Shown piece after piece: positions 50,916 through 56,614 of a stretch of 64,000 bases of DNA. The notes beneath the pieces are model-generated. The model searched no databases. It saw only the letters and a program-made list of their open reading frames with translations, and had not been told where the DNA came from. This DNA is from Armatimonadetes bacterium CG06_land_8_20_14_3_00_66_21 (GTDB lineage: Bacteria; Armatimonadota; Abditibacteriia; CG2-30-66-41): the NCBI GenBank assembly GCA_002779825.1, contig PEVN01000512.1, forward strand, positions 1 through 64,000, given 5' to 3'. Numbering within the stretch: position 1 is the stretch's first letter; each line of letters opens with the position of its first letter. The position numbers and the translations under genes are program-made.

Positions 50916-53483
50916 CTACAACGCACAGCGGAACCCGACCGGGCCGAGCTCGAACAGCGGGTTGTCCTCCACCCGAGAGGTGCACCGCCCAAACCGACAG
51001 TCTTCAGCGAACGACCCGCCGCGAATCACCCGCCGCTGGTAGGCTCCGCGCGGCCGAATCTCGCCGCTTGCCTCCTCAGCCACAAACGGGCTTGCAGTGT
51101 ATTCCCAGACGTTGCCAACCATGTCGAGGCACCCAAAAGGGCTGGCGCCCTCGGGGTAGCGCGTGACCGGCGTTGTGGCACCCAGTCCACTCTCCGCTGT
51201 GTTGCATCGCTCTGGAGCGAACTGGCTCCCCCACGGGTACGCCCTGCCGTCCACGCCCCGGGCGGCTTTCTCCCACTCCTCTTCAGTGGGCAAGCGATGG
51301 CCGAGCCACCTGCAGTAGGCCTCGGCGTCGTACCATGACACCCCGTGAGCCGGGTGGTCCGCCAGAACCTCGTCGTAGTCGCCCCCGGCCCAATGCGCGG
51401 GAGCGCCTCGGCCCGTGGCGGCGACGAAGCGCGCATACGCTTCGTTGGTGACCGGATACCGAGCGAGGTAAAACCCCTCCGTCCGGCGCCGCCTCTGCTC
51501 GGGTTCCAAGGAGTTCTCGCCGAAGAGAAACTCGCCCGCCGGCACCCATAGGTAGCCGTGGGCGGCCAGCAGTTCGCGGTGGCTATCCTTGCTGAGACGG
51601 CCCAGAGCACCGATGGTCCACGCGACCCCGAAGTCGTCGTCTTCCAGCTCTTTCAAGAGGCTTAGGAGCGCGTCCACCGCGGGTGCGCCCGGGCAGGTCT
51701 CAAACGCCTGCACCGAGGCAACCAGCGACCCGCGGTCCAACTCAGCAGACCGCGCCTGCTCCAGCAGCCGATGGGCGCTAGCCAGCCGGCGGCGCGGCGT
51801 GCACTCACGTAGCCGTTCCAGGGCGGCCTCCCGGATGATCTCGTCTTCACTTCCCAGCGCCTGAACGAGTTCCTCGTCCGCTTCCAGGCTTCGCTGCTCG
51901 CCGCCGAGCAACGAGCTGTCCGTCGTCGAGGACAGATAGCGGTACGGCGCGAGATCGGCCCCGCCGAAGAGCGGCTCAATGGAGAGGAAGTCGAGCAGAT
52001 CGTGCTTGTCCTGGTGCTGCTGAAGCATCGGGGATGACTCGACCAGGGCCTGCCGGTGTGCCCCATCCACCGCCGCGGCGAGTTCTTCCAGCCGCCGCAG
52101 CAAGCCGGGGAAACGCGCCACCTGCGCGAACTCAGCCGGCCAGGCTCGCCCCAGCACAAGCCACTTGGCCAACAGCGCCTCCTCTAGCCCCGGACTGGCT
52201 GGATTGAGCAGTCCGGCTTGGGCCGCGAGGTGCTTCTGAAGACTGAACTCATTCAGGAACTGCTTCACTCGCCGGGGGTTATTGTTCAGACCCTCGGCGA
52301 TGATATCAACAAAGTGCTCCAGACCGGGTTCGCACTCGAGCCCGGTAACCAAGTTGGCGATCTGCACTCGGTTGGCCGTGGGGAGGTTGAACTGAAGCTG
52401 GACGATCTTGTCGAGGTAGTCCTTCTCTGTCCCGACGCTCTCCTGCGACGTCGGGTGCAGCGTCTGATAGACCACCTGGATGCCGCGCTGGATCAGCTCC
52501 CGGTCCGCCCCAATCACGAAAACGCACCGCGGCACGCTAAGCACGAGCTTCAAATCCTCCAGTAGCTCGATCACCCGCTCCGGCAAGCACCGATCCAGAT
52601 CGTCTACAAACACGACCAACCGGCCGGCCGGGCCCACGATCTGCAGCACCAGCTCCTCCAGAACGTCGCGGAATACGTGATAGTCATTGCTTCGAAGCAG
52701 CGCGCGCCCCTGGGAGGGGTCCTGGATGAGCGCCGTCCGCTGGAGATCAGCGCCCATGGACGCCAGGGCCGAAGTCATGGCGTACGGCAGGCCCTTCTGG
52801 GGCTTCTCGTCTCCGCCTTGAATGGCAAGAGTGCGCTCGAATGCCGCGACCAGTGGCGCCGCAATGGAGGCGTCCCGGTAGTGTTCCCATGGGTTGAACC
52901 AGATCGCGCGGAAGTGCTGTTGACGCAGTTCGTACTGGATCAGCCGCATCAGGCTGGTCTTACCGCTTCCCCACGGGCCGTAGATCCCGACGGTCACCGG
53001 CGTATTGGTCTTCGGGTGGGCGATGAACCCGGCGATACTGCCGGCAAACGGTCTGAACCCAAGGAGGTCTTGCTCAGGCTGCCCGATGGGCTCATCCGCC
53101 AGCACTCCTTGCTGGAATGATGCCGCCCCCAAGTGCCCCAGCGCCGCGGGCCCTGCTTCAGAAGGTCGCAGCACGCCGACCGCCTGCTCTGACCCACCAG
53201 GCACCCCGGCGGCGGGCACTTCCGGCGGCGGAGCCACCGCGGGCTCCGGCGCGCGCCCCTCGCCCGCCGACGACTGTGGCGGCGGCGGCTCACCAAGAGC
53301 GCCCGGCGTTCCGTCGGACACTGGCAGCCCTGCCCCGCGAGGTCTCATCGGATCCATTCCCGCGATCCCCCGGGCGCGGCTCAGTGCCGCCAGCAGCGAC
53401 GACGCGTCGGGGCGCAGTGCCCCGGGCGGCGGAACCTCCGGCGAAGCGTTCGAGAGGTCGGTGTTGTCAGCTTCTGGGCTCAC
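50916..53483 (-). CDS. KAP-family P-loop NTPase fused to a SUMF1/FGE-fold domain
   Basis: 855 residues. The GTG start at 53483 is the best I can offer; a frame open to 53690 would read through the MITE-like element, so it is rejected, and no good RBS is seen. After ~150 Pro/Ala-rich residues comes a KAP NTPase (Walker A GPWGSGKTS at 169-177, Walker B VVFVDDLDRC), then helical HEAT-like repeats and a C-terminal SUMF1-type fold (GYLWVPAGEFLFGE, HRLPTEEEWEKAARG, IRGGSF, VGFRCA). The FGE copper-Cys pair is not both evident, so it may be a binding domain. No transmembrane KAP insertion is visible. Confidence 0.8.
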   Translation of the reverse strand: MSPEADNTDLSNASPEVPPPGALRPDASSLLAALSRARGIAGMDPMRPRGAGLPVSDGTPGALGEPPPPQSSAGEGRAPEPAVAPPPEVPAAGVPGGSEQAVGVLRPSEAGPAALGHLGAASFQQGVLADEPIGQPEQDLLGFRPFAGSIAGFIAHPKTNTPVTVGIYGPWGSGKTSLMRLIQYELRQQHFRAIWFNPWEHYRDASIAAPLVAAFERTLAIQGGDEKPQKGLPYAMTSALASMGADLQRTALIQDPSQGRALLRSNDYHVFRDVLEELVLQIVGPAGRLVVFVDDLDRCLPERVIELLEDLKLVLSVPRCVFVIGADRELIQRGIQVVYQTLHPTSQESVGTEKDYLDKIVQLQFNLPTANRVQIANLVTGLECEPGLEHFVDIIAEGLNNNPRRVKQFLNEFSLQKHLAAQAGLLNPASPGLEEALLAKWLVLGRAWPAEFAQVARFPGLLRRLEELAAAVDGAHRQALVESSPMLQQHQDKHDLLDFLSIEPLFGGADLAPYRYLSSTTDSSLLGGEQRSLEADEELVQALGSEDEIIREAALERLRECTPRRRLASAHRLLEQARSAELDRGSLVASVQAFETCPGAPAVDALLSLLKELEDDDFGVAWTIGALGRLSKDSHRELLAAHGYLWVPAGEFLFGENSLEPEQRRRRTEGFYLARYPVTNEAYARFVAATGRGAPAHWAGGDYDEVLADHPAHGVSWYDAEAYCRWLGHRLPTEEEWEKAARGVDGRAYPWGSQFAPERCNTAESGLGATTPVTRYPEGASPFGCLDMVGNVWEYTASPFVAEEASGEIRPRGAYQRRVIRGGSFAEDCRFGRCTSRVEDNPLFELGPVGFRCAL

Positions 53484-53543
53484 TGTGAGTTGTGGACGGT
53501 CACCGGCCTGCCAGCCGCCGGCTCCGTCCCTTCTCCTTATACT

Positions 53544-53680
53544 CGCGAAGGTTAAGAACACACCGAAGTGGAAGTTCGCGGAACTTCCCCGGCAGGCGTG
53601 CAGCAGACGTAGGACAGAGGGTATTCTCCCAGACGGAGCCGAAGTCGCACCGGGACTTCGGTGTGTTCTTAACCTTCGCG
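53544..53680. mobile_element. MITE-like element with 26-bp perfect inverted repeats
   Basis: A 26-base arm at 53544-53569 (starting CGCGAAGGTTAAGAA) returns as its exact reverse complement at 53655-53680, enclosing 85 bases with no gene. A further perfect palindrome, GGAAGTTC-GCG-GAACTTCC, lies at 53570-53588 just inside the left arm. Near-symmetric TATA sequences flank both ends, so a TA target-site duplication of the IS630/Tc1-mariner type is possible. No transposase is nearby. The element lies in the gap upstream of the KAP gene. Confidence 0.7.
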
Positions 53681-53761
53681 GATATAGCACGCCCCGAACG
53701 TCTCGGTATGCGCGTCCCTACAAGTGTTGCGCGACGCGGGGCTCTCGTCCGCTGGACCCGG

Positions 53762-56614
53762 CTACAGGGCCGGTGCCTGGGCCGCTATGGTCTTGGCGCG
53801 CACGGGAGGCGGAGACTGGACTTCCTGCCGCAAGGCCAGCAGCAGCCGGACGCAGTCCCAACGCAGTTCTTGCAGCCTCTTGGCACGAAGCGTGCTCAGC
53901 ATGGCGCCGTGGTCTAACTGGATCGTGGCGCGGAGTTGCGCCAGGAACGCAGTCGCCGTCTCACGGGCGGGGCCCGTCTGCGGGTCGGCCGCGGCTACGC
54001 TCTGCGCCAGGGATCGCTCCAGCAGCAGGACATAGCGCAGATCGTCAATGCCCTCGCGGGCGGCTTCCCACTGAACAGTGGGAAGCGGGCCCTCCTGAGT
54101 CGGGTACGTGAGCAGTCGGCACCGCGCCCCTACCTCAGTCTCGGCATAGGGGCTGTCCGTTGCGGCGAGGTCCTGGTAGTCGGACGCCAGCGCCCCCTGG
54201 AAGCCTGACTTGAAGAGGTAATACCCGCAGAACAGCCGGTTGACGTTCGGGTCTTCCTGCGTGCAGTCCCAGGTGTACAGCTCGCGGGCACGACGCGGCT
54301 TCGCGCCGGCAACCAGAGACTTCGCGTATACCACAAATCCGGGGTCGTCCACCGAGTAGACCGGGAGGTCGACGGGATGGCTCGTCTCCGCCGCGTCCGC
54401 GAGAGTCACCAATCCGGTGGTGGCGCCTTGGGTCTCCCGGACGAAGCCGAGCGACTCTATCGCGGCCGGGGCGTGCGCTTCCATCCCCAACTCGGGAGGA
54501 CCGAACAGGAGCGTCCAGCCAGGTCCCTTGGACACGGCGCGGCGCACCTCTCGCGCCTTCTGGGCGCTCGGCATCTGGGGGAAGTAGGGGAACAGCCCGG
54601 ACATTCCGAGCCGCCAGCGAACGTCGAGGCATGCCTCCAGCCGGTCCCCTTGCTCGACCGCAGCCACGTAGCGGAAGCCGTGGTCAAGGATGTCCCTCAG
54701 CTCGCGAGCGTACAACTCCTCAGTGCGCGCCAAGGGCCCGGTGTCGCTGCTGAGAACGGCCCGATGCCCCAGCACGAGCCACCGGGGGGCGGGAGGAAGA
54801 ACGAAGGGCAGCACGCGCACCTGCAACGCGATGGAGGCCGACGCCCCGTGCCCAGGTTGCACGGTCACGTTGCCGACATACACGCCGGGGGCGGCCTTCT
54901 CCGGAATCTGCACCGTCAGCCACACCTGTTTCGAGGTCCCACCCGGGACGTCAGTGACAACCGGAGCGTCCCCCGGCAAGGAGGGAAGCCCACCCGCCAA
55001 GTCGACGCGGTCATCGCGCATCAGCAGCTCTGGCACCGTTTCCGCTCGATCGCCCTTTGCACCGGTCAGAAGCTGCGGCCAGCATTTCACAATCCGGGCA
55101 GAAAGGTACCGTTGGGGGATCACTCCATTCTCCCCGACGAGGTCGGAGAGCTGGATCGCCACCTCGGTCAGGTCGCCGATCGCGGAGAGCACAAACGACG
55201 CCGGCTCGCGTTCCCCCCGGCAGCCGGACACGTGCATGGGCTGCCCAACCGCCTCGGTCTGGGGCGGCGTGTCATACAGAAGCCGCTCGAATGGATATAC
55301 CGGAAACAGCACGTATGAGCTTCCGCCCACCAGCTTCGAGGGGGCGAGGGAGGGAGTCAGCTCGGAAGGCCCTGCGAGCGCCGTCGACGGACCCGCAGGG
55401 CCGGCTGCCGCGAGGGCGGTGAGCCTGTCGTTTAGGGATTCCCACCGCTCAACCGAGGGCTGCTCGAGCGCGTCGATTCCCTGCTCGACGGCCGTGAGTC
55501 GCCGCAATTGCTCCTGCAGCGCGGTGGCCGACTCCGGTGTTGCGCCGCCCAGAGCGGCGACAAACCGGTCTCGGAGCCAGTCCACCCGCGGAAGCAGGAA
55601 GCGGGGGCGCAGTTCAAGCCTTGGCGTCACGAGAAACGTGCCCGGTCCGGCCGGCGCCGACGCTTCCAAGCGCAGCGCTTGAGGCGCCCGGAGCTGCTTC
55701 CGGTATGACAGAGAGACCGGCCGGACAGCGAAGGAGTCCAGCTCGAGCCGTTGCTGCAGCACCGCGACATCGCCGGCAGCATCGACGACGTTGGCCCGAA
55801 CCGTGACCTGCACAGGCAGCGCTCCAGGGTTGTACACCTCGCCACGCACCACCGCGCCGCCCACCAGCTCACCGAACTCGTCGCCGAGAGACTCCCAGGC
55901 AAACGTCGGCACGGTCCCGCCAAAGAGGAGTGTCCCGAGCTGGTCCGGGGCCAAGAACGAGCCCCGGGCGCCGCTCCAACTGGAGCGCTCCTCACCTTGG
56001 GCACGACAGCGGCAGAGATTGGCCGACCAGCGGTCGCCGAAAGCCGGAGACCCGCCAAGCGCCGCGAAAGGAAGCCGGAGTTCTGCTTCCCAGAACGCTT
56101 CCGAGATCGAGGTTTGGACTGTGGCGCGGGAGTCCCAGCCAGCGGGCGCGCCCCTCGCCGCCTCATCGTAGAGCGCGCCGATCACGTTGACGATCAGGTG
56201 GTAGACAGGCCCCTCGCGGGTGCGGGCGAGGAGCAACTCGAGGCAGTCGTCAGCCCCGATGCCTGCAGCGTCGCGTCTGCTGGTCAGCCCTGCCACCTTT
56301 GCCATCTCCGGCTCGTCACACCGGACACCCACGTAGAGGCACTCGTCATCCCACAGCAAGCGGCCGTGCGTGGCGGCAGCAGCCTGGTACCCCTCGGTGA
56401 GCCGCGAGAAGAACTCGACCCGCGGCGCATTTCGCCAGACCGCCTCCGTCAGGAGCCCGTCGACGGAGGGAGCGGCTGACGTGTGTGCCGCATACGTTAG
56501 CGCCCGTTCCGCAGCTTGGGCGCCGGGGAAGGCGTCGGCCGCCAGCAGCAAAGTCGCCAGTGCCAAGCCGGATCGACGGGCCGGCGAGTGGACTCGGACT
56601 ACCAGGACGAACAC
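53762..56614 (-). CDS. Large secreted DUF4091-type carbohydrate-active-like protein
   Basis: 950 residues. An N-terminal hydrophobic signal (SGLALATLLLAADAFPGAQA) is followed by a CBM9-like beta-sandwich (VDGLLTEAVWRNAP, LWDDECLYVGVRCDEP), then a long middle domain, and a C-terminal DUF4091-like block including PTVQWEAAREGIDDLRYVLLLER. DUF4091 proteins are associated with polysaccharide breakdown; activity is unproved. GTG at 56614 is used, though GGAGG abuts it, so a slightly different start is possible. It is downstream (minus strand) of the zinc-ribbon/PH protein gene. Confidence 0.8.
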   Translation of the reverse strand: MFVLVVRVHSPARRSGLALATLLLAADAFPGAQAAERALTYAAHTSAAPSVDGLLTEAVWRNAPRVEFFSRLTEGYQAAAATHGRLLWDDECLYVGVRCDEPEMAKVAGLTSRRDAAGIGADDCLELLLARTREGPVYHLIVNVIGALYDEAARGAPAGWDSRATVQTSISEAFWEAELRLPFAALGGSPAFGDRWSANLCRCRAQGEERSSWSGARGSFLAPDQLGTLLFGGTVPTFAWESLGDEFGELVGGAVVRGEVYNPGALPVQVTVRANVVDAAGDVAVLQQRLELDSFAVRPVSLSYRKQLRAPQALRLEASAPAGPGTFLVTPRLELRPRFLLPRVDWLRDRFVAALGGATPESATALQEQLRRLTAVEQGIDALEQPSVERWESLNDRLTALAAAGPAGPSTALAGPSELTPSLAPSKLVGGSSYVLFPVYPFERLLYDTPPQTEAVGQPMHVSGCRGEREPASFVLSAIGDLTEVAIQLSDLVGENGVIPQRYLSARIVKCWPQLLTGAKGDRAETVPELLMRDDRVDLAGGLPSLPGDAPVVTDVPGGTSKQVWLTVQIPEKAAPGVYVGNVTVQPGHGASASIALQVRVLPFVLPPAPRWLVLGHRAVLSSDTGPLARTEELYARELRDILDHGFRYVAAVEQGDRLEACLDVRWRLGMSGLFPYFPQMPSAQKAREVRRAVSKGPGWTLLFGPPELGMEAHAPAAIESLGFVRETQGATTGLVTLADAAETSHPVDLPVYSVDDPGFVVYAKSLVAGAKPRRARELYTWDCTQEDPNVNRLFCGYYLFKSGFQGALASDYQDLAATDSPYAETEVGARCRLLTYPTQEGPLPTVQWEAAREGIDDLRYVLLLERSLAQSVAAADPQTGPARETATAFLAQLRATIQLDHGAMLSTLRAKRLQELRWDCVRLLLALRQEVQSPPPVRAKTIAAQAPAL

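Follow-up and report, generated by a model that had tools for sequence, protein, structure and literature searches.

Directly upstream of a KAP gene, the 64,000-nucleotide stretch of Armatimonadota DNA analysed here (the window) carries a short palindromic segment, raising the question of whether it is a hairpin that serves this gene or a mobile element that has come to lie beside it. An earlier note had read it as a 137-base MITE (a non-autonomous DNA transposon), and the features it described are present: two 26-base arms (53544–53569 and 53655–53680) that are exact reverse complements, a 19-base inner palindrome (GGAAGTTCGCGGAACTTCC, or GGAAGTTC-GCG-GAACTTCC; 53570–53588) that adjoins the left arm, and TATA at both flanks. 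Extending the arms to 53538/53686 gives an inverted repeat of 32 nt at 94%, and the predicted folding energy is −80.3 kcal/mol, against −42.8 for shuffled sequence (z = −9.9).

Searching the window's own Armatimonadota MAG (8.29 Mb, 578 contigs, 93% complete, 6.6% contamination) for the 26-bp arm with up to 3 mismatches returned 153 forward and 145 reverse matches (298), and the reversed arm, used as a control, returned none, which indicates about 150 elements. The arm is therefore multi-copy and dispersed, excluding the outcome that the note had set against its own proposal, an arm unique in the genome and conserved with the KAP gene. Retrieving around 130 places together with their surroundings allowed 119 elements, each with its own distinct flanks, to be delimited; in 113 the span between the CGCG ends is exactly 137 bp. 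These form two subfamilies that are ~67% identical to one another: subfamily I (50 copies, mostly with TATACCC ends, mean pairwise divergence 2.7%) and subfamily II (63 copies, mostly with TATACTC ends, 1.3%), in which the inner palindrome is almost unaltered. Eleven of the 113 complete copies, including that of the window, are identical across all 137 bp, and copies equal to the consensus number 11 and 20 within the respective subfamilies. Three copies (L080, L126 and L052) appear mosaic by eye; a half-by-half sort flagged none as mixed between subfamilies, so mosaicism is not established. Among other variants, one 61-bp copy (L061, G000:C160:13839-13899) has an internal deletion with both arms kept, and a lone 18-bp end (TATACCCGCGAAGGTTGG; L171, G000:C162:9402-9420) is fused to unrelated sequence, either a deletion remnant or chance. 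Many contigs of the MAG terminate in such repeats.

Comparison of the ~119 copies upholds the element and corrects its extent, the 137-base span being too short: the complete element, a member of subfamily I, is 145 bp (53540–53684), with 30-nt terminal inverted repeats (53540–53569, + strand; 53655–53684, − strand) and ends of the TAC...GTA type. The window copy ends TACTC / GGATA where subfamily I usually has TACCC / GGGTA, one change per end. Outside these lie the two copies of a TA target-site duplication (53538–53539 and 53685–53686), assigned from the sequence itself, from the outer dinucleotides across copies and from the empty site ACG-TA-GGAC of a nested copy. That copy (L095), a subfamily II element inserted into a subfamily I element, provides a filled/empty pair: GCAGACG-TA-GGACAG becomes GCAGACG-TA-[TACTC...GAGTA]-TA-GGACAG, 147 bp longer (145 + TA), which defines the element as 145 bp with a TA duplication and fixes its ends without sister genomes. 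Outer dinucleotides are TA/TA in 107 of the 119 copies, and the duplicated non-TA cases (GA/GA in two, CA/CA in one) also attest to target duplication. The target is a TA in the weakly palindromic context SWGS-TA-SCWS; position −3 (A/T, p down to 6e-37) and position −2 (G) show the flank preference most strongly. The proposed MITE with TA target duplication is thus strongly supported by the copies, the filled/empty pair and, as described below, interrupted genes.

These data reveal a dispersed family of ~150 copies that has precise ends, a TA duplication and a weakly palindromic TA preference, diverges very little within each subfamily, and has inserted into genes and into another copy of itself; from these copies we infer that the element has moved. 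Bacterial MITEs are typically under ~200 bp, with terminal inverted repeats, terminal TA, a target-site duplication and a stable RNA hairpin (PMC2229807, PMC10969869). At 145 bp, well below a broader ~300-bp limit, lacking a transposase gene and bearing inverted repeats of 30–32 nt, the segment is almost certainly a MITE. A transposase acting in trans would recognize its ~20-bp ends (TACYCGnnAAGGTTnRnAA), mobilize it and make a 2-bp staggered cut at TA to insert it, and the family would have multiplied recently in this lineage.

The earlier assignment of this MITE to the IS630/mariner type fares less evenly. Its TA target and duplication fit an IS630/Tc1-mariner parent, and there is a precedent in RUP, for which IS630-Spn1 is the proposed mover (PMC2229807). 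Against this, a PF13358 (DDE_3) search gave no match in the assembly, the same search being positive in 3 of 14 control genomes, and no long element sharing the family's ends accompanies the copies. TA duplication is in any case not exclusive to IS630. Three PF01609 loci (L187–L189, one of them ISAs1-like by sequence) have no TACYCGCGAAGG ends, their terminal inverted repeats being other or not matching. Nor did the genome yield an autonomous partner among arms with a different inner base, or a long element among family ends diverging after AAGGTT. MAG assembly often drops multi-copy elements, and the present one (578 contigs, 6.6% contamination) may lack multi-copy IS elements; the absence of a transposase is thus weak evidence, and derivation specifically from an IS630/Tc1-mariner element is a serious candidate that falls somewhat short of probable. 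Three TTAAT cases (C7, C240 and C481) considered as autonomous partners proved instead to be arms into which a second repeat family had inserted. This second family (~166–178 bp, ends CTACAACCGTACTTAGC...GCTAAGTACGGTTGTAG) occupies ~40 places in the same genome (for example, L281–L287, L173, L174, L170 and L185), with some copies inserted at TA inside an arm of the 145-bp family.

Searching for the end signal more widely (25-nt end, up to 3 mismatches) gave matches in five genomes among the 291 searched from the phylum: the genome itself, two of the same class (the named Armatimonadetes MAGs CG2_30_59_28 and NC_groundwater_1070; G002 and G004) and two others, each with one hit at 3 mismatches whose significance is doubtful. 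Ends reading TACTCGnnAAGGTTGARAA (up to 1 mismatch) number 72 in G002 and 49 in G004 and are often paired at 65–240 bp with differing interiors; reading the longest open frames beside unpaired ends in relatives (L236, L248, L255, L262, L267 and L273) led to no recognizable transposase. Outside Armatimonadota, three MAGs had end matches, where ~2 would be estimated by chance for a collection of that size, so that only the paired one is convincing: a Chloroflexi MAG has a properly paired 192-bp element with the same TATACTCGTTAAGGTTGAAAA end (L241, ~1337–1528), possibly reflecting cross-phylum spread or a mis-binned contig. A Syntrophobacteraceae match (L256) lies at a contig end, and that MAG possibly carries an element with the same end; a Bacteroidetes match (L277) is unpaired and appears to be a chance hit. 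Neither end motif matched viral contigs, and the set of papers searched contained neither the relatives' end motif (TACTCGTTAAGG) nor one joining MITEs with Armatimonadetes. The TATACTCGnnAAGGTTGA signal is common to many small elements with unrelated interiors (65–240 bp), and no long element was seen. A more speculative reading, which we regard as rather unlikely, is that this ~20-bp signal marks DNA for a TA-specific transposase not yet described, or for a domesticated host enzyme, either of which would mobilize anything lying between two such ends.

At the window locus the element lies, as the note had placed it, directly upstream of the KAP gene, which encodes a KAP P-loop NTPase with a C-terminal FGE-sulfatase domain (50916–53483, − strand; PF07693, 1.2e-34; PF03781, 1.5e-53) and whose start is uncertain (GTG 53483 or ATG 53357). 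On its other side is a GH123 N-domain-like gene running in the same direction (53762–56614, − strand; PF22680, 2.7e-10), and the spacer from the stop of that gene (53762) to the possible KAP start (53483) is ~280 nt long, of which the element takes up 145. This position in the KAP 5' spacer, together with the very stable fold, is what would be expected of a regulatory hairpin (attenuator, terminator or promoter element) of the KAP gene. The suggestion that the element carries the KAP promoter gains no support from a scan of 53400–53800, which found no sigma-70-like site under rules that may not be those of this phylum, and the only terminator-like site there (0.3 expected in shuffles) is on the + strand, opposite to KAP. 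Near-identical copies, ~150 of them, beside and inside unrelated genes refute regulation of KAP as the origin of the element and make this reading very unlikely. The MITE probably sits neutrally here, in a spacer between two same-direction genes; if transcribed by read-through, it would fold as RNA into a single, very stable hairpin that may influence transcript processing. Separately, the KAP part of 50916–53483 (− strand) has PADLOC matches to QatA (1.7e-40) and PifA (3.5e-32), and the KAP–FGE gene may be defence-related.

Across the genome, a codon-usage score puts 29 of 113 copies inside a frame that scores as coding to either side, compared with 63% of TA sites in the window, and a cruder gene caller places 60 of 110 copies in genes (against 81%); genes are under-represented by either method, as expected if genic insertions are usually lost. 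Copies within genes break them. When the element and one TA are removed and the joined flanks are searched against Pfam, junction-spanning domain matches are recovered for a response regulator (L125, 1.5e-24), a GH29 fucosidase (L117, 2.4e-120), an AMP-binding enzyme (L001, 2.8e-17) and a PNPOx (L151, 2e-21); for L152 (GH38 mannosidase) and L075 (histidine kinase) the junction is within the gene, close to domain edges. From either end, a host frame in the commonest phase runs into Tyr-Thr-Arg-Glu-Gly-stop (YTREG-stop). Intergenic copies (30 tandem, 18 divergent and 2 convergent) are close to the background split, and a terminator-like role at gene 3' ends was rejected on this ground. A REP/BIME-type repeat moved by a RAYT (Y1) transposase would share the palindromy, high copy number and intergenic excess, but such repeats have no target-site duplication, and the 2-bp duplication, exact 145-bp ends with 30-bp inverted repeats and insertions within genes render this highly improbable. 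Least credible is an insert kept in reading frame within proteins, like the Rickettsia palindromic elements: the net insertion of 147 bp is 49 codons and some frames are open (for example, L075 and L030), but most genic copies read YTREG-stop in the host frame, and phase 0 holds a similar share of the insertions (22 of 29) as of genic TA sites at large (384 of 556).

Among known systems, the Correia/NEMIS elements of Neisseria are alike in size (~107–155 bp), ~24-bp terminal inverted repeats, copy number (>100), terminal TA with target duplication, a stable RNA hairpin and lack of a transposase gene (PMC2229807, PMC10969869). They belong to an unrelated organism, and some carry promoters, whereas none was found here. 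The ends of the present family (TACYCGCGAAGG...) also differ from Correia ends. RUP of Streptococcus pneumoniae is similar in size (107 bp), copy number (~108) and TA target (PMC2229807), but has inverted repeats of only 9 bp and a proposed partner, IS630-Spn1, of a kind not found here. The Rickettsia palindromic elements are ~150 bp, palindromic and also found inside genes (PMC10969869), but fuse in frame, whereas most frames here meet a stop and genes are broken. The element is thus an ordinary kind of bacterial MITE, but one of a new, lineage-specific family. For a poorly studied phylum, Armatimonadota, it records an apparently recent burst of MITEs to high copy number, and its defined end motif offers a handle for seeking the missing transposase.
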